IMG/VR virus record: IMGVR_UViG_3300033143_003178
Coordinates: 1 to 35,062 of that record
Direction: 5' to 3' (one strand)
Length of the DNA: 35,062 nucleotides
DNA from: a virus
In this document: positions 5,317-18,644 of the stretch, one piece after another
Numbering within the stretch: position 1 is the first letter of the stretch
Layout of the letters: the number at the start of each line of letters is the position of its first letter
Notes under the pieces: generated by a model
What the model was told of the DNA's origin: nothing
What the model saw: only the letters and a program-made list of their open reading frames with translations
Database searches by the model: none
Translations under genes and position numbers: made by a program

Positions 5317-5529
5317 ATGGCTAAAAGTACATTTGAAATAAAAATAACTCCCAAAATGCTTCAAGATGCTATGAAAAGCGCAGTAAAGATTTGGAGCAAA
5401 TCAAACAAAGAAAAAATAAATGATAGTAGATATTTGTTAAACGCTTATGTGTTCGCTGATACACAGATGGCACAAGATATTGCAGTTGAAATGATGAAAT
5501 ACAATAAAGGGCTTTCATTTAATGGCTAA
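5317..5529 (+). CDS. Hypothetical 70-residue protein before terminase
   Basis: A helical, Lys-rich protein starting after GAGAGG. Its end overlaps the small-terminase ATG (5522), so it probably belongs to the packaging operon. No motif recognised. Confidence 0.6.
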   Translation: MAKSTFEIKITPKMLQDAMKSAVKIWSKSNKEKINDSRYLLNAYVFADTQMAQDIAVEMMKYNKGLSFNG

Positions 5530-6049
5530 ACTAACTGATAAGCAAAAAGAGTTAATAATTGCCGATTACCATACTAACAATTTTAGTCAAAGAGAATTAG
5601 CAAAAAAATATAATGTATCAGTTGGAACAGTCAGTAAGCTAACAAAAGAAGTCAACCCAAAAAATGAACACTTAGTGAACGCTCAAATGTCTATTTTATC
5701 GGCTCAAAGTGAGCTTTCAAATGAACAGATGAACGCAATAATGAACACTGCACAAGATAAGCTAAGGCGAGAAAACTTAATTTATGGGAACGCTGAATTG
5801 ATGGCAAGTAAAGTTCCCGATATTATAAACTCTTTCATTATAGAAAATGAAGATACAGAAACAGGCGAAGTAACAAAAAAATTTATAATGGGTGCTAAAG
5901 CGTTGAGAGAACTTGCAGAAGCGAATGATAAGTTATCAATCACTTTAAAAGTAGCAGATAGACACGCTCCAAAAACAGAGATAACCAACACTAATGCACA
6001 GCAAAACAACGAAACAACCGAAATACAAGTGACACGAATTGGTAGCTAA
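5522..6049 (+). CDS. terS: Terminase small subunit
   Basis: A 175-residue protein with an N-terminal helix-turn-helix (QRELAKKYNVSVGTVSKLTKE, about residues 23-43), a long helical middle for oligomerisation and a polar Asn/Gln-rich tail. This is the usual TerS plan: the ring binds the packaging start site through the HTH and hands DNA to the large subunit. It directly overlaps the large-terminase gene and the upstream gene, so all three are likely co-translated. Confidence 0.85.
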   Translation: MAKLTDKQKELIIADYHTNNFSQRELAKKYNVSVGTVSKLTKEVNPKNEHLVNAQMSILSAQSELSNEQMNAIMNTAQDKLRRENLIYGNAELMASKVPDIINSFIIENEDTETGEVTKKFIMGAKALRELAEANDKLSITLKVADRHAPKTEITNTNAQQNNETTEIQVTRIGS

Positions 6050-10516: not shown

Positions 10517-10897
10517 TTAGTTATTATCTAATATCCATTGACAAGCTTTGAAGATTGCTTCTGTTTCCGAGTTATCAGAAAACACCTCTTTATCATATAT
10601 AGAGCCTTTATTTGTGACACTAAAAGTGCTTAACTCTGCGAAGTATATCACAGTGGATAAGTCAGGCTTATACGCTTTTACAGATACGGTAACTATTACC
10701 CCTCTAGTTAACGCCCACTCTTTACACTTATGAGCTAATTCGTGGATGTTGATATAGTTCCATGTCGTATAAACTCTATACGCTATGTCAAATACAGATA
10801 GTCCCCTTTTTAGGTTAGACTCTATTACTCCACTATCAGTCACAACTTGTAAAATATCTTCATCTAGTACTCCGCTCATCAATTCTTTACTTATCAT
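10517..10897 (-). CDS. Conserved hypothetical protein, last gene of the leftward operon
   Basis: A 126-residue protein with a good GAGGA site seven bases before its ATG. The motifs INIHELAHKCKEWAL and ETEAIFKACQWILDNN are familiar to me from uncharacterised phage and prophage proteins of Campylobacterota. Function unknown. It is the third of three leftward genes driven from the promoter at 11688-11716. Confidence 0.65.
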   Translation of the reverse strand: MISKELMSGVLDEDILQVVTDSGVIESNLKRGLSVFDIAYRVYTTWNYINIHELAHKCKEWALTRGVIVTVSVKAYKPDLSTVIYFAELSTFSVTNKGSIYDKEVFSDNSETEAIFKACQWILDNN

Positions 10898-10899
10898 CT

Positions 10900-11289
10900 T
10901 TAAATCCTCGTAACCTTAACACCACTAATACTAAAATCAATACAAGTGGTACACAACTCTCTACTATCAAACTTTATCATCATTAATGTTCTATCTAATG
11001 AAAAGCTTTTGATAACACCTCGACCATATCCGACACTATCACAGTAAACAAAATCATTTACTTTTGGATTAACTAACTTATCTCTTTTGTATAAGTGATT
11101 ATACTTCTCTTGTAGGAGTATGTCGTATAGAAACCAAAGCTGTTTTGAATCCAGCTTATATATTTTTTCTACTTGTTCAGACTTTAATTTGCTTATTTGA
11201 ACATCGTATTTTATCTCACGCCACTCTGTTTTTGTAATACCGTAACTTTCAGCGCTTAGGGAGTATTTATTTATTAAAGCCGTAAGCAT
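10900..11289 (-). CDS. Hypothetical protein, middle gene of the leftward operon
   Basis: About 129 residues. I place the start at the ATG at 11289, overlapping the preceding gene by 23 bases; a TTG at 11304 is an alternative. The N-terminal half is helical and Lys-rich. The C-terminal half (PKVNDFVYCDSVGYGRGVI onward) looks like a small beta barrel with three cysteines. No family recognised. Confidence 0.6.
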   Translation of the reverse strand: MLTALINKYSLSAESYGITKTEWREIKYDVQISKLKSEQVEKIYKLDSKQLWFLYDILLQEKYNHLYKRDKLVNPKVNDFVYCDSVGYGRGVIKSFSLDRTLMMIKFDSRELCTTCIDFSISGVKVTRI

Positions 11290-11644
11290 CCCAGTTTCTA
11301 GCAATTAGAAAAACTTCCGTATTCATTTTATCATTAATTTGTTTTTCAAAGTGTTCGAGCATCTCCTTTGGTCGGCACTTGTTGCCGTTGGTGTCAATAG
11401 GGTTATAGTCAGCGGTCCTTGCTCCTATTTTATTGTTGTTAATATCGTAAATATATACGGCTATGTTCCTATTGAAATAAACAATAGTGATGTTGAGTTT
11501 CGCCTCGTCAAAGCTTGGCTCATATCTAATAAGCATTTTATAATTTGCATTAAAGCTTTTAGTGAGAGTGTTGTGAATCTCATCGCAAATATCACTTATC
11601 TTTACTTGGTGCTTCTTTAATGCTTCTAATTGTTTCTCTAACAT
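11267..11644 (-). CDS. Hypothetical protein, first gene of the leftward operon
   Basis: The ATG at 11644 has GGGGAGATGATAGG upstream and lies about 45 bases downstream of a consensus promoter. A longer frame beginning at 11725 would start upstream of the promoter's -35 and is rejected. The 125-residue product has an N-terminal helix (MLEKQLEALKKHQVKI) and a beta-rich core (LNITIVYFNRNIAVYIYD). It resembles no family I know. The DnaA-box array starts just upstream of its promoter, so host DnaA could affect it. Confidence 0.65.
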   Translation of the reverse strand: MLEKQLEALKKHQVKISDICDEIHNTLTKSFNANYKMLIRYEPSFDEAKLNITIVYFNRNIAVYIYDINNNKIGARTADYNPIDTNGNKCRPKEMLEHFEKQINDKMNTEVFLIARNWDAYGFNK

Positions 11645-11687
11645 CCTATCATCTCCCCAGTGTTGTTTTTTCTTTTCAGATACCCAT

Positions 11688-11716
11688 ATAATAACCAAGA
11701 GATAAAAAGTTGTCAA
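11688..11716 (-). promoter_or_regulatory. Consensus sigma-70 promoter of the leftward operon
   Basis: Read leftward: TTGACA (11716-11711), a 17-base spacer, then TATTAT (11693-11688). It is one of only two promoters in the window with a perfect -35. A DnaA-like box (11717-11725) abuts the -35, so occupancy of that box would be expected to influence transcription. Confidence 0.8.
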
Positions 11717-11924
11717 TGTGAACAACTACCATAAAAAGAGCTATTCACATACTATTCACATAAAGCAAAATCTAATGTGAATAACAAAAGTAAGCAATAC
11801 GGTAACTTTAAGGATACAGTGTGAATAAGTAGCTTAAAAATCAATGTGAATAAGATGTGAATATCTAAAATGTGAATAACTGCAATTCTTTAATATAATT
11901 AATATATCATTGTTTTAATTTTTA
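11717..11924. other. Candidate replication origin: array of eight DnaA-like boxes plus AT-rich stretch
   Basis: Boxes with core TTCAC/GTGAA lie at 11717-11725, 11741-11749, 11752-11760, 11776-11784, 11820-11828, 11845-11853, 11856-11864 and 11871-11879. Four are exactly TGTGAATAA (reverse TTATTCACA); the others differ at one or two outer bases. Spacings of 11 bases occur twice. An almost pure A/T stretch follows (11884-11940), suitable as an unwinding element. The core matches the published Campylobacterota DnaA box, which differs from TTATCCACA by T at position 5. The array fills most of a 316-base gap between divergent operons. An operator array for an unknown repressor is the alternative. 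Confidence 0.65.
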
Positions 11925-14534: not shown

Positions 14535-15254
14535 CTACAAAAGCTTCCCTAGACTTTGTGCAAATTCTAGGGGGTCTTTAGCATTTTTTGAACAATTACA
14601 ATGAGGGCAAGAAACAACGATATTCTCAAGAGAATGTTTTCCGCCTTTTGATAATGGAATATAGTGGTCGATATGCTTATTTTTAAGTTTATTATTACAC
14701 CAGTAGCAATTAATCGCATTTTCAAGTATTTCTTTTATTTGGGTCGATGTTAAATCTCCGCCCGAAAAAGACTTTTTCCTTTTATTGTGTGAGTTTTTTC
14801 TAACTGCTTTCCCCATTGGGGATATTCTATATTTCCGTTCTTTCTCTCTCACTATGTCGATATTTTCAGCCCTATATCTCCTAGAACTATCTTTTAATTT
14901 TTCCCTATTTTTAGCATAATATTCTTTTTGCCTGGCTTTTGCTTTTTCTTTGTTGTCTTTTAGATATTGCTTTGATTTTTTTATAATATCTTCTTGGTGT
15001 AATAAATAGTATTCTCTTTGTTTAGTTTTGATTTTTTCACTATTGTTTTCTCTATATATCTTGTCGATTTTCGCTTTATTTACTCTATTTTTAAACCTAG
15101 CTTTTCTAGCTGTTTTCATTATAGAATCTCTATTTTTTATCCTATAGTTTTTTACACAATCTTTACAATGGCTACATAGTCCATCTTTAAAATTTTTATT
15201 TTTATGATATTCTGATAATTTTTTTGTGATTTTACATTTTGTGCAAGTTTTCAT
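14535..15254 (-). CDS. Free-standing HNH endonuclease with N-terminal zinc ribbon
   Basis: A 239-residue protein on the strand opposite all surrounding structural genes. The N terminus has CTKC (C4, C7) and CSHCKDC (C27-C33), the middle is about 110 residues of extremely basic helix with repeated KQREYY/KARQKEYY units, and the C terminus is a clear HNH: CYWCNNKL, HIDHYIPLSKGG, LENIVVSCPHCN. This is the build of a homing-type nuclease that inserts between virion genes. It has its own promoter and a structured leader shared with the gene at 17473. Confidence 0.88.
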   Translation of the reverse strand: MKTCTKCKITKKLSEYHKNKNFKDGLCSHCKDCVKNYRIKNRDSIMKTARKARFKNRVNKAKIDKIYRENNSEKIKTKQREYYLLHQEDIIKKSKQYLKDNKEKAKARQKEYYAKNREKLKDSSRRYRAENIDIVREKERKYRISPMGKAVRKNSHNKRKKSFSGGDLTSTQIKEILENAINCYWCNNKLKNKHIDHYIPLSKGGKHSLENIVVSCPHCNCSKNAKDPLEFAQSLGKLL

Positions 15255-15317
15255 TTTGAAGTCCTTTAGTCGCTTCTTTAGCTAATGAACCGAGAGGAGC
15301 AACCCTCTCAACTAAAG
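15255..15317 (-). promoter_or_regulatory. Structured leader RNA A, two competing helices over the ribosome-binding site
   Basis: In the leftward RNA, the 5' segment CTTTAGT (15317-15311) can pair with ACTAAAG (15270-15264), which overlaps the AAAGGA ribosome-binding site, or with CTAAAG (15281-15276) just upstream of it. A GAGAGG/CCTCTC hairpin (15309-15304 with 15297-15292) lies between. The same layout with different stem bases occurs at 17968-18031. Confidence 0.65.
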
Positions 15318-15323
15318 ATTAAC

Positions 15324-15347
15324 ATTATACCTAAAATATGCTATAAT
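15324..15347. promoter_or_regulatory. Divergent promoter pair A
   Basis: Leftward TATAAT lies at 15329-15324, whose start site would fall at the first base of leader A. Rightward TGCTATAAT lies at 15339-15347, 22 bases before the next head-tail gene. The same pair with identical spacing is at 18038-18061. Confidence 0.7.
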
Positions 15348-15369
15348 TACAATTAATAAAGGGGTAACA

Positions 15370-15747
15370 ATGGCAGATAATCAAGAAGCATTAGACGCGA
15401 TACAAGACTTCAAAGATGCTCTTGTTACAGATGGTAGTGCGGTAACAATTAGAACGATTACAGCAGGGGAATGGGACAGTTACGGGAATGTTATTGTTGT
15501 TGAAACAGTTTCAGACGAAATTACAAAATGTTTCCCATCAAGTGAAGCTTCATCAAGAGTTCAAGCAGTTATAAATGCTGATACTAATATAAGTAGCTAT
15601 GAATTATCTTTAAAACTATATACAGAAACAGAAGTAACAAAAGCCGATAGAATAGTTTTCGATAGTGATGTTTATGAGATTCTTTATGTTTCAAAAAAGA
15701 TCTATCAAGATATAGTTGTGTTTTACGAATTGTTGGTTAAAAAATAA
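15370..15747 (+). CDS. Head closure / head-tail joining protein
   Basis: A 125-residue beta-rich protein after AAAGGGGTAAC. The pattern of an N-terminal helix followed by strands ending in ADRIVFDSDVYEILYVSKKI fits head-closure proteins that cap the connector before tail attachment. Gene order (adaptor, closure, neck, tail completion, tube) supports it. Its stop overlaps the next ATG (TAATGA). Confidence 0.68.
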   Translation: MADNQEALDAIQDFKDALVTDGSAVTIRTITAGEWDSYGNVIVVETVSDEITKCFPSSEASSRVQAVINADTNISSYELSLKLYTETEVTKADRIVFDSDVYEILYVSKKIYQDIVVFYELLVKK

Positions 15748-16067
15748 TGACTCCCGTTGAAGCCTTAAAAAGTTTAGAGGCTCAATCAGATCTAGCAGTT
15801 GCGGTTGTAGCAAGTGATTTATTTAGCGAATTAATAAAAGTTTCACCGGTTGATGTTGGTACTCTAAAAGGTGCGTGGAGTTTAGAAAAAACCAAAGACG
15901 GTTGGAGAATTTCAAACAATATGGGATATTCTTCAATAATTTTCGATGGTAGAAGAAAAGTAGGCGGTCAATGGTATGGATCAGAACAACTCCCAAAAGG
16001 AATCGATCCAATACTTTCAAAATACAACAGAGTTTTAGAAAATTTACTTGATAGAATAAAGGTTTAA
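15747..16067 (+). CDS. HK97 gp10-like neck protein
   Basis: A 106-residue protein with an N-terminal helix, then the signature SPVDVGTLKGAW (about residues 34-45) and the beta segment IFDGRRKVGGQWYG. The SPVDTGxLRxSW-type motif is typical of HK97 gp10 family proteins at the head-tail interface. Translation is coupled to the preceding gene. Confidence 0.8.
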   Translation: MTPVEALKSLEAQSDLAVAVVASDLFSELIKVSPVDVGTLKGAWSLEKTKDGWRISNNMGYSSIIFDGRRKVGGQWYGSEQLPKGIDPILSKYNRVLENLLDRIKV

Positions 16068-16069
16068 AA

Positions 16070-16459
16070 ATGGGATTATTAGAATTAGCAGCAGAGCCAG
16101 AGATTTATTTCACTACAAATTGGACTGATACAGATATTGAACTACCAGACACAGAGTTTGATTACGATGGACTTGATACTTATATTTCAATAGACTTCGC
16201 GCCAACTGTAAATGATTACACAGGTATGGATGGAACTTCAACAGGGCGAATCGCAAGTTATGGATTATATTCAGTATATTGCTACCATAAGAAATTAAAA
16301 CTTGCTTTAGATTTAGCAGACGATATAAAAACTTTTTTTAATGGTATAGAGTTGCCGAAAGATATTCATGTAGGAATCGGTCAAGATAAACCCGCGATTG
16401 ATTTAGAAAATGGGTTCTTTGAATCTAAAGTAAATTTTGAATTAAAGCAATATTCGTGA
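16070..16459 (+). CDS. Tail completion / tail terminator protein
   Basis: A 129-residue protein starting two bases after the neck gene. It has an N-terminal acidic region, a central strand block (RIASYGLYSVYCYHKKLK), a helix (ALDLADDIKTFFNG) and a final strand. This fits tail terminators, whose ring ends tube growth. It is the gene directly before the tail tube, as expected. Confidence 0.68.
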   Translation: MGLLELAAEPEIYFTTNWTDTDIELPDTEFDYDGLDTYISIDFAPTVNDYTGMDGTSTGRIASYGLYSVYCYHKKLKLALDLADDIKTFFNGIELPKDIHVGIGQDKPAIDLENGFFESKVNFELKQYS

Positions 16460-16462
16460 TTA

Positions 16463-16492
16463 TGCTATAATACATTAGTATTTTTCGCGAAA
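16463..16492 (+). promoter_or_regulatory. Promoter TGCTATAAT with a palindrome at the start site
   Basis: Extended -10 at 16463-16471. A perfect 10-base palindrome TTTCGCGAAA (16483-16492) lies at about +5 to +14 of the predicted transcript, where an operator would block initiation. The tail-tube ATG follows at 16518. Confidence 0.7.
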
Positions 16493-16517
16493 TATATCTT
16501 AAAACAAAGGCTATAAA

Positions 16518-17480
16518 ATGGCAAAGGTCAATACAAAAAAGACAAGTTTATTTTTAAAATCTGGCGCAGTTCTACCGGTTGCACCGGCTAACTTCTTAGA
16601 AGTTGAAGAAGAATTACTTATTTCACCAGACATCCCGGTTGAAGAGTTTAAGCGAATCAATGGCTTGTTGGGTTCAAATGATAGTTATGCAAATGTTGAT
16701 TTCATTAAGTTCGCACAAACAATCACAACTAAAATCAGATTTCAAAATAGCGCAGCAGATGCACTTGACACAGTTCCCGAATACGGTGAACTTTTAAAGC
16801 TTGGTGGTTTTGATGAAACTATTGATACGGGTACAGCAACAGAAGAAACTGTAATTTACACTAATACTCAAACGCCGGTTGTTGGAAGTACAGTTGCGTA
16901 CATTGATGGTAAAAAGCATCAATCAGCAGGAAGTGTCGCAGCAGATCTAACTTTTAATTTCCCTATTGGAAAAGCAGCAACAATTTCAGCAGCACTTAGT
17001 GGATATTTAGATAATGCAGGGGTTGCAGCAACAGAAGCGAATCCAACAGTTACACTTAACACTGAATCTTGCTTATTGGTTGGTAAAGCTGATATAATGA
17101 CAGCAGGAGGAACAGCAGTTGTTCCAGACAATATTACTATTGCAATGGGTGCAGATATTCAAGAATTCCAAGGGATGGGAAGAGCTGAATTTGAAATGAA
17201 AGATTATATGATCAAAGTTACAGCAGATTTTTATCCAGAAAATGCTGATTATAATGATGCGGTTACTCTTTTAGGTGCAGATACAGTTGAAGCTTTAGTT
17301 ATTAAGCTAGGAACAGCAGATGGTGTTCTTGTGAATGGTAAATCTATTCAGATTGATTGTGGTTTCGGTAAAGCATCGGCATATAGTGATTCTGGCGCAA
17401 ATGGCGCAGTTAAGAGAACTTTTACTTGGTTATTACAATCAGAAAACCAAATATCTATAAAGCACGGGTTTTTCATTTAG
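16518..17480 (+). CDS. Major tail protein (tail tube)
   Basis: A 320-residue Ala/Gly/Thr-rich protein, mainly beta strands with few aromatic residues. DNITIAMGADIQEFQGMGRAEF and IKVTADFYPENADYN look like the tube-domain strands, and the C-terminal part has IQIDCGFGKASAYSD. It sits between the tail terminator and the frameshifting tail chaperones, exactly as lambda V sits before G. It has its own promoter, as expected for the most abundant tail protein. Its last eight bases overlap the convergent HNH gene. Confidence 0.82.
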   Translation: MAKVNTKKTSLFLKSGAVLPVAPANFLEVEEELLISPDIPVEEFKRINGLLGSNDSYANVDFIKFAQTITTKIRFQNSAADALDTVPEYGELLKLGGFDETIDTGTATEETVIYTNTQTPVVGSTVAYIDGKKHQSAGSVAADLTFNFPIGKAATISAALSGYLDNAGVAATEANPTVTLNTESCLLVGKADIMTAGGTAVVPDNITIAMGADIQEFQGMGRAEFEMKDYMIKVTADFYPENADYNDAVTLLGADTVEALVIKLGTADGVLVNGKSIQIDCGFGKASAYSDSGANGAVKRTFTWLLQSENQISIKHGFFI

Positions 17481-17967
17481 AGCCGTGATTTTTATGGAAG
17501 CCATGTTTTACATTGGCTTCCTTTCTTGCATTAATAGCCTCGTTTTTATTCTCATAATAACCTAAATTAATCTGTTTATCATTTATCATAATGTAAGCTC
17601 TCCACCGCTTAGAAGATTTAACAAAAGACACCCCACAAAAACCACTTGTATTGCTTTTGTGTAACTTCATATTTCTTTGATTTTCTCTTGAAGTGACTTC
17701 TCTTAAATTTACAAGTCTATTATCAGAGCCAATGTGATTTATATGGTCAATCATTTTAGGAGCATATCCATACAAGAGCATCCATATAATTCTATGAGCT
17801 AAGTATCTTTTCTGTTTATATCCAATAAACCTATGACCAGTCTTTAATATATACCCAGCTTCGCTTCCAACTCCATTGTTCCCAACAATATTGATTTTCC
17901 AAATTAGAGAGCCAGTTTTTTTGTTGTATCTAAATATTGATTTTAATTCTTTTTGAGTAAGATCCAT
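17473..17967 (-). CDS. HNH endonuclease with C-terminal AP2 DNA-binding domain
   Basis: A 164-residue leftward gene inserted between the tail tube and tail chaperone. The N-terminal half has AHRIIWMLLYG and MIDHINHIGSDNRLVNLREVT, the HNH_3 motif. Residues about 107-155 (SGFCGVSFVKSSKRWRAYI, then NLGYYENKNEAINARKEAN) form an AP2 domain, which recognises DNA. This domain pair is common in homing endonucleases. Its stop overlaps the tail-tube stop region, so insertion was precise and non-disruptive. Its leader and promoter resemble those of the gene at 14535 although the proteins differ. Confidence 0.9.
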   Translation of the reverse strand: MDLTQKELKSIFRYNKKTGSLIWKINIVGNNGVGSEAGYILKTGHRFIGYKQKRYLAHRIIWMLLYGYAPKMIDHINHIGSDNRLVNLREVTSRENQRNMKLHKSNTSGFCGVSFVKSSKRWRAYIMINDKQINLGYYENKNEAINARKEANVKHGFHKNHGSK

Positions 17968-18031
17968 TTTGAAGTTCCTAGTTTAATTTCTAGTTTTAAT
18001 GAAGCGAGGGGTAATTAATCCCTCAAACTAG
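17968..18031 (-). promoter_or_regulatory. Structured leader RNA B, two competing helices over the ribosome-binding site
   Basis: In the leftward RNA, CTAGTTT (18031-18025) can pair with AAACTAG (17984-17978), overlapping the AGGA ribosome-binding site, or with a second AAACTAG (17996-17990). A GAGGG/CCCTC hairpin (18024-18020 with 18010-18006) lies between. Compared with leader A the stem bases changed on both sides while pairing and order stayed the same. Confidence 0.65.
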
Positions 18032-18037
18032 ATTAAT

Positions 18038-18061
18038 ATTATAACCAATTTATGATATAAT
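18038..18061. promoter_or_regulatory. Divergent promoter pair B
   Basis: Leftward TATAAT at 18043-18038 serves the HNH-AP2 gene. Rightward TGATATAAT at 18053-18061 serves the tail chaperones. The distance between the two elements equals that in pair A, so the whole leader-plus-promoter block (about 96 bp) is homologous between the two sites. Confidence 0.72.
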
Positions 18062-18062
18062 C

Positions 18063-18162
18063 ACAACATTATTCGCTTCCTTATACTTTTTGATGTTTAG
18101 TATAAGGGAATAATGACATATTCATTAATTAAAGCTACATCTTATAAATAATGTTGTATAAT
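18063..18162 (+). promoter_or_regulatory. Structured leader before the tail chaperone gene
   Basis: CCTTATACT (18079-18087) pairs with AGTATAAGG (18099-18107), and ATTATTC (18068-18074) with GAATAAT (18108-18114), giving 16 bp with a four-base bulge on one side. ACAACATTAT (18063-18072) can instead pair with ATAATGTTGT (18148-18157), which excludes the outer helix. A second TATAAT (18157-18162) lies at the end. The 130-base gap before the gene at 18192 holds nothing else. Confidence 0.55.
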
Positions 18163-18191: not shown

Positions 18192-18644
18192 ATGAAATTA
18201 TTAATACAACAAAAATTCTCGCTAGAGATTCCGCACGAAAACAAAGATGATGAAATAATCATAGGTTTACTTACTCCAATTAGCAAAAAACAAAAACGAG
18301 AAAACAAACAAGCTTTCAAAGAAGATGAAACAAAAGCAAAAAAACTGCAAAAAGATTCTTTAAAACTTAATCGTTTAGCAATAAAAGTTGACAAAGCTTC
18401 AAAATCTGATATGTCAGAAGCTGAACTTGAAAAGCTTTATAATGAAGTTGACGAATTATCAGAAAGAGTTGAAACTAAAAATGAAGAATTGCAAAACGAA
18501 GATATTTATGAAAAAGTAGCAAAAAAACAATTTAACCAAAGTGTTAAAAGTGAACAACTTGATAGACTTATAGAGATTTGTGAACTAATGGGATATAGAC
18601 AAGTTTTAGACGTTATCCATAGAGATATTCAAGAGGGAAAGTAA
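18192..18644 (+). CDS. Tail assembly chaperone, short form (lambda gpG-like)
   Basis: A 150-residue helical, highly charged protein between tail tube and tape measure, the position of lambda G. The start follows AAAGGTAAC. It ends in GGGAAAG-TAA, where the heptamer is in the slippage phase (G GGA AAG), so a fraction of ribosomes should continue into the downstream frame. The product would coat the tape measure protein and recruit tube subunits. Confidence 0.82.
   Translation: MKLLIQQKFSLEIPHENKDDEIIIGLLTPISKKQKRENKQAFKEDETKAKKLQKDSLKLNRLAIKVDKASKSDMSEAELEKLYNEVDELSERVETKNEELQNEDIYEKVAKKQFNQSVKSEQLDRLIEICELMGYRQVLDVIHRDIQEGK

Follow-up and report, generated by a model that had tools for sequence, protein, structure and literature searches.

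A conserved leader with two predicted alternative pairings precedes unrelated HNH nuclease genes in phage structural operons

Introduction

How can a nuclease gene reside within an essential phage operon without harm to the phage, and why should two unrelated nuclease genes of one phage be preceded by the same leader? Both questions are raised by a 35,062-bp phage contig (IMG/VR record IMGVR_UViG_3300033143_003178; this whole stretch of DNA is referred to below as the window), which has identical 114-bp ends and a GC content of 33%, and whose plus strand encodes terminase, portal, capsid, tail tube and tape measure genes. Its connector and tail region is interrupted by two leftward genes, A and B, which code for HNH nucleases and follow closely similar leaders (Table 1). 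What lets free-standing homing nucleases enter essential operons harmlessly is known mainly from relatives of phage T4. We consider it likely that the leader described here is a cis-acting translation-control element that travels with, or has been captured by, phage homing-type HNH genes inserted in antisense orientation. Weak tail-tube matches to Nitratiruptor phages hint at a host among the Campylobacterota.

Results

The two leaders align end to end over ~95 bp, from a pair of divergent promoters to the start codons of the nuclease genes (ATG at 15254 for A and at 17967 for B). A preliminary description of this DNA had claimed this alignment, together with an equal spacing of the promoters, the unrelatedness of the nucleases and a 5' segment with two rival downstream partners, one at the Shine-Dalgarno (SD) sequence and the other upstream of it; each of these observations held at the positions given in Table 1, and the boundaries proposed for the leaders are correct. 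The promoters overlap, with inverted -10 boxes (ATTATA-N12-TATAAT) separated by the same 12 nt in A and B, an arrangement that occurs in the window at 15324 and 18038 only, and all four rank among the five best promoter-like matches in the region. The -35-like sequence TTAACA of the rightward promoter at A (15319-15324) falls within the leader. Because the leftward -10 box TATAAT sits 6 nt before the 5' segment, which we call X, this segment should lie at about position +1, at the very 5' end of the leftward RNA. The proteins encoded behind the leaders belong to different families (Table 1), and BLASTP revealed no similarity between nuclease A and nuclease B.

In each leftward RNA, X can pair either with the downstream element Y1, which leaves the SD free, or with the near-identical element Y2, which overlaps the SD motif AGGA; Y1 and Y2 are spaced by 12 in both A and B. 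Dinucleotide shuffling produced a double-partner element that matched the real one in length in 0 of 5000 cases for A and in 1 of 5000 for B. The idea of a transcriptional terminator was also checked; no U-run follows the hairpin located between X and Y1, and no terminator was called in either leader.

Table 1. Positions of the leaders, their elements and the nuclease genes in the window
Feature	Position	Strand	Evidence or remark
Leader A with overlapping divergent promoters	15255..15347	minus	alignment, promoter and covariance searches
-10 TATAAT, leftward (HNH) promoter A	15324..15329	minus	6 nt before X
Extended -10 (TGcTATAAT), rightward promoter at A	15342..15347	plus	upstream of head-closure gene 15370-15747
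A element X, CTTTAGTT (CTTTAGT(T))	15310..15317	minus	
A conserved hairpin, GAGAGGGTTGCTCCTCTC	15292..15309	minus	
A element Y1, AGCTAAAG	15276..15283	minus	pairing with X leaves SD free
A element Y2, GACTAAAG	15264..15271	minus	overlaps SD AGGA 15265-15262; pairing covers SD
HNH nuclease A	14535..15254	minus	N-terminal zinc ribbon, HNH_5/endonuclease VII-like, 239 amino acids, HNH residues intact
Leader B with overlapping divergent promoters	17968..18061	minus	alignment, promoter and covariance searches
-10 TATAAT, leftward (HNH) promoter B	18038..18043	minus	promoter scan
Extended -10, rightward promoter at B	18056..18061	plus	upstream of gene 18192-18644
B element X, CTAGTTT	18025..18031	minus	
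B hairpin, GAGGG-loop-CCCTC	18006..18024	minus	loop differs from A
B element Y1, AAACTAG	17990..17996	minus	
B element Y2, AAACTAG	17978..17984	minus	overlaps SD AGGA 17979-17976
HNH nuclease B	17473..17967	minus	HNH_3 plus weak AP2 match (below Pfam cut-off), 164 amino acids

Further members of this leader type were sought with the DNA pattern of the A hairpin in public viral contigs. The search returned 16 stretches, which we sorted by inspection into three true leaders (L101, L110 and L112), one diverged case (L025/L100, described below) and chance matches. L101 and L110 precede zinc-ribbon HNH genes, while the L112 contig ends a few codons past the start. The compensatory changes that the preliminary description had noted in all three elements of A and B recur in these leaders; a lack of other such instances, which it had named as the outcome that would speak against its proposal, is not what we found. 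X reads CTAATCATT in L101, CTTAGTT in L110 and CTAAGTT in L112, so that the five leaders have five different stems, each with two matching Y copies. When the X and Y elements were combined as they occur in nature, 30 of 30 positions paired, as compared with permutation means of 20.6 for Y1 and 20.4 for Y2, and the true assignment was the single best of 120 permutations for Y1 and again for Y2. In the shuffle test for a double partner, L110, L112 and L101 scored 3, 0 and 0 of 5000. Counted over the alignment for X:Y2 plus the hairpin, 98% of the cells are paired, and four pairs carry two-sided changes; the covariation of this structure is 0.40, against 0.17 in shuffles and at most 0.17 in slid structures. 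A covariance model trained without B found B with 45.3 bits (E 9.4e-8) and otherwise only A in the window, whereas a sequence-only model built from the same training set without base pairs did not report B. Over ~1.5 Mb of fetched sequence, the covariance model scored the five leaders at 70-87 bits and the next match at 21.

The departures of the X-Y stems from Watson-Crick pairing are seven U.G pairs on the HNH strand and one U.U, with no A.C, and the Y1-Y2 spacing varies from 11 to 14 across the five leaders. By prediction, the X:Y2 helix covers AGGA in all of them. The 18-nt hairpin (GAGAGGGUUGCUCCUCUCG) is identical in A, L101, L110 and L112, and B keeps the stem with another loop; the 12-nt spacing of the inverted -10 boxes is likewise kept in four of the five, L112 being without it. 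No part of the cassette is as well conserved as the leader: A and L110 share 89% DNA identity over 99 nt (B and L110, 73%), and their nucleases share 36% protein identity. In every case the HNH gene runs opposite to its phage neighbours and lies in a head-tail connector or tail operon. The L101 phage is contractile-tailed (it encodes a tail sheath), and the other leaders come from tape-measure relatives of the window phage.

Other searches added no members. No Rfam 15 family reached its gathering score in the window, and permissive scans of the two leaders gave chance-level matches. The pattern TATAATNTTAATCT..TTCATTA yielded 13 chance matches inside coding DNA of viral contigs and no leader; a looser hairpin pattern recovered L110, L112 and a single chance match in viral contigs, and in genome contigs five stretches, none of them a leader by inspection. 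Comparison of the leader DNA with phage records gave short chance matches only, and no such element was seen upstream of eight HNH genes from named phages.

We then compared the stabilities of the two rival folds by constrained folding. The energies calculated for X:Y1 and X:Y2 were -17.4 and -17.7 kcal/mol for A, -15.7 and -15.6 for L110, -16.4 and -16.4 for L112, -20.1 and -18.7 for L101, and -15.5 and -11.2 for B. Hence, the folds are nearly equal in A, L110 and L112 (differences of at most 0.3 kcal/mol), with calculated equilibria near 1:1. Since both rival helices use the same X, this balance can persist while the stem drifts, largely independent of its sequence in such calculations. An RNA thermometer was considered and discarded: A is nearly independent of temperature (SD paired 0.46-0.50 from 10 to 45 C), L110 shifts, and the leaders have no common trend. 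We also observed that a conserved TTCATT between the hairpin and Y1 (15289-15284 and 18003-17998 in the window) could base-pair with AATGAA/AATGGA at the start codon; the counterpart in L101 is CTATTT facing AAATGG. This complementarity, in each case weakly above shuffles (5-17%), possibly represents a third state or a pseudoknot.

Both cassettes are insertions, because in a relative of the window phage (L005/L006; tail-tube identity 77%) the flanking genes are directly adjacent at both syntenic sites, with neither HNH gene nor leader. Cassette A lies between the head-tail adaptor and the head-closure gene, and cassette B immediately past the tail tube gene. An intact HNH gene at a site that is empty in relatives is what characterizes a homing cassette; homing activity itself is putative. 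The 3' end of HNH gene A (14544-14580) contains a strong hairpin (CCCTAGA..TCTAGGG) that folds on both strands. It was not among the called terminators; it could restrict transcription through the tail operon, and the divergent promoter would then have a purpose. A long hairpin (18067-18115) follows the B cassette; at the corresponding place, immediately behind its tail tube gene, L005 carries another hairpin. B seems to have been inserted after the stop codon of the tail tube gene and ahead of the window hairpin. L005 also has, just before its tail tube gene, a leftward gene that looks YopX-like by eye (5471-5935, minus strand), a different cassette at a nearby site and without the shared leader. 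Three more leftward open reading frames (ORFs) occupy positions 10517-11725 on the minus strand of the window, between the head morphogenesis and scaffold genes; they are possibly another inserted cassette. None of them matches a protein family convincingly or a defence protein clearly, and the leader is absent there.

Two outlying cases deserve description. In L025 (14435-15170, minus strand; also in L100), TATAAT and the 16 nt (GAGAGGGTTGCTCCTC) that form the 5' part of the conserved hairpin stand before a phage gene that matches an AP2 domain and has no HNH profile match in Pfam. The leader of this gene holds a rearranged two-copy element, TTCACTA / TAGTGAA / TAGTGAGG-SD, with X placed after the hairpin, and scores 20.7 bits (E 0.1) against the covariance model; gene and leader fall within a stretch of ~1,050 bp where the relative L022 has ~260 bp. 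The other case, L136, emerged when relatives of the zinc-ribbon nucleases were sought by protein similarity; here an HNH gene with a zinc ribbon lies upstream of a terminase-like gene. In its leader (1200-1265), CCTATCG is followed by two copies of CGATAGG, the second fused to the SD sequence AGGAGG. In sequence this leader has no relation to the others, and the hairpin is absent; its double partner arises in 6 of 5000 shuffles, and its lowest-energy fold differs. The same two-copy descriptor, run over 3.2 Mb with ~1,770 SD-plus-ORF sites available, matched few non-HNH genes. L136 is a suggestive, possibly convergent and independent echo of the two-copy design.

Discussion

We judge the leader to be a conserved, transferable, two-state element, kin to the hairpins that occlude the ribosome-binding site (RBS) in T4 and Aeh1; its function, signal and timing are inferred. 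It probably serves as a portable control that keeps the nucleases in check. On this model the leftward promoter would start the RNA at about X, and during transcription the strong hairpin, followed by X:Y1, would form first, with the SD exposed, because Y1 emerges before Y2. Y2 and the SD would emerge about 12 nt later, and X, which can pass between the copies because they are near-identical, would exchange from Y1 to Y2 by branch migration, so that the SD would be covered in a fraction of the RNAs. Nuclease synthesis would thereby be throttled, possibly as an early burst or confined to a short time. A factor might bind the conserved hairpin, and the divergent promoter may restore transcription of the phage genes past the insertion. 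If so, the control element would itself be modular and exchanged between unrelated nucleases, and its duplicate-partner design, simple as it is, would account for a two-state balance that survives sequence drift.

The two-state switch put forward in the preliminary description stands in part: the leader is shared, two mutually exclusive helices are possible and the compensatory changes recur, but the calculations place B strongly on the Y1 side and let L101 lean the same way, and the late or signal-dependent control that it suggested is hypothetical. Several points weigh against our own reading. Y1 is favoured by a calculated 4.3 kcal/mol in B and 1.4 kcal/mol in L101, and in L112 there is a competing third family of folds, with the conserved TTCATT paired to the region of the start codon. 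There are only five clear members, three of which (A, L110 and L112) are closely alike, and the alignment and stems are partly hand-guided. The value for B comes from a fuller sequence context, in which the SD of the favoured Y1 state is predicted to pair into the start of the coding region. The calculated equilibria are as compatible with a throttle, or with a timer based on folding order, as with a switch that responds to a signal.

What, then, do the rival explanations have to offer? The leaders are plainly homologous across copies, but it is very improbable that a promoter-leader cassette was merely inherited or exchanged without function, with pairing as a by-product of repeats; shared ancestry by itself would not alter three separate elements in concert, and every one of the tests (permutation, shuffle, slide and leave-one-out) speaks for pairing under constraint. 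The elements also adjoin a promoter, and autorepression is established for I-TevI (PMC2988022); X, Y1 and Y2 might accordingly be DNA operators to which each nuclease binds to repress its own promoter, the stems following binding specificity. We regard this as improbable. RNA of the HNH transcript is favoured over DNA operators because the wobbles are all U.G on one strand, because the Y1-Y2 spacing of 11-14 bp speaks against fixed helical phasing, and because Y2 is always fused to the SD; moreover, the hairpin between X and Y is kept as a pair-forming unit.

Among explanations that invoke RNA, it is quite possible, if short of an even chance, that the leader is a constitutive throttle, in which X:Y2 or the mean accessibility of the SD sets a steady low level of nuclease and Y1 tunes the occluded fraction without any switching. 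The intermediate calculated occlusion, with its small temperature change in A, agrees with this, as does the low, tightly limited expression that is a known theme of T4 homing nucleases (PMC2988022). A throttle needs one partner, yet in each of the five leaders the second copy has changed in step with X, and this, together with a hairpin that is letter-identical in four of them, suggests that more than tuning is involved. That hairpin may instead be bound by a ligand, such as a protein of the phage or of its host, that shifts X from one Y copy to the other, which would make the leader a regulated switch. We find this rather doubtful: the hairpin stays identical in A, L101, L110 and L112 while the X/Y stems and the proteins diverge, and its 5' 16 nt also precede the AP2-domain gene of L025, but B has a different loop on the same stem, no ligand or protein is known, and the identity could reflect recent transfer. 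Only tentatively do we extend our own reading, a two-state translation-control leader, to a mobile RNA switch module, a promoter-plus-leader acquired by different nuclease genes, in which a hairpin-reading factor or the speed of transcription would move X by branch migration and so time synthesis, while the divergent promoter would rescue the tail operon.

The nearest known systems are the homing endonucleases of T-even phages (I-TevI/II/III, SegB and Aeh1 mobE), which have RBS-occluding RNA structures that form only on transcripts from upstream promoters, since the proximal late promoter skips the 5' half of the structure (PMC2988022). Here, too, homing-type nuclease genes have an SD that, by prediction, an RNA helix just ahead of the start codon can bury. 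In contrast to T4 and Aeh1, the proximal promoter precedes X, so that its transcript is expected to contain X, Y1 and Y2; X has two alternative, covarying partners; and the leader is common to unrelated nucleases. Searches of the full text of open-licence papers yielded no description of a duplicate-partner leader that unrelated HNH genes have in common. The mRNA of lambda cIII is described as an equilibrium of two conformations, one of which sequesters the SD (Altuvia et al., 1989, as described in PMC10226581), and it resembles our leaders, as predicted, in that a phage mRNA has competing structures in which the SD is either accessible or hidden. Such a mode, with two exclusive folds of similar stability, compares with folds at most 0.3 kcal/mol apart in A, L110 and L112, 1.4 in L101 and 4.3 in B. 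Unlike in cIII, our folds use duplicate copies of one partner, the genes are unrelated and there is no known sequence relation. A riboswitch would have a conserved ligand-binding domain and a ligand; the leaders have a conserved hairpin with no known ligand. They recall the HEARO or OMEGA RNA of IscB as structured RNA beside an HNH gene, but the nucleases here are not IscB proteins, and there is no match to an Rfam family. In co-transcriptional timers such as the leader of the MS2 maturation gene and hok mRNA, a transient early pairing delays the covering of the SD. Unlike in these timers, X has almost the same sequence as its transient and as its final partner, and the two end states come out about equal in calculated stability.

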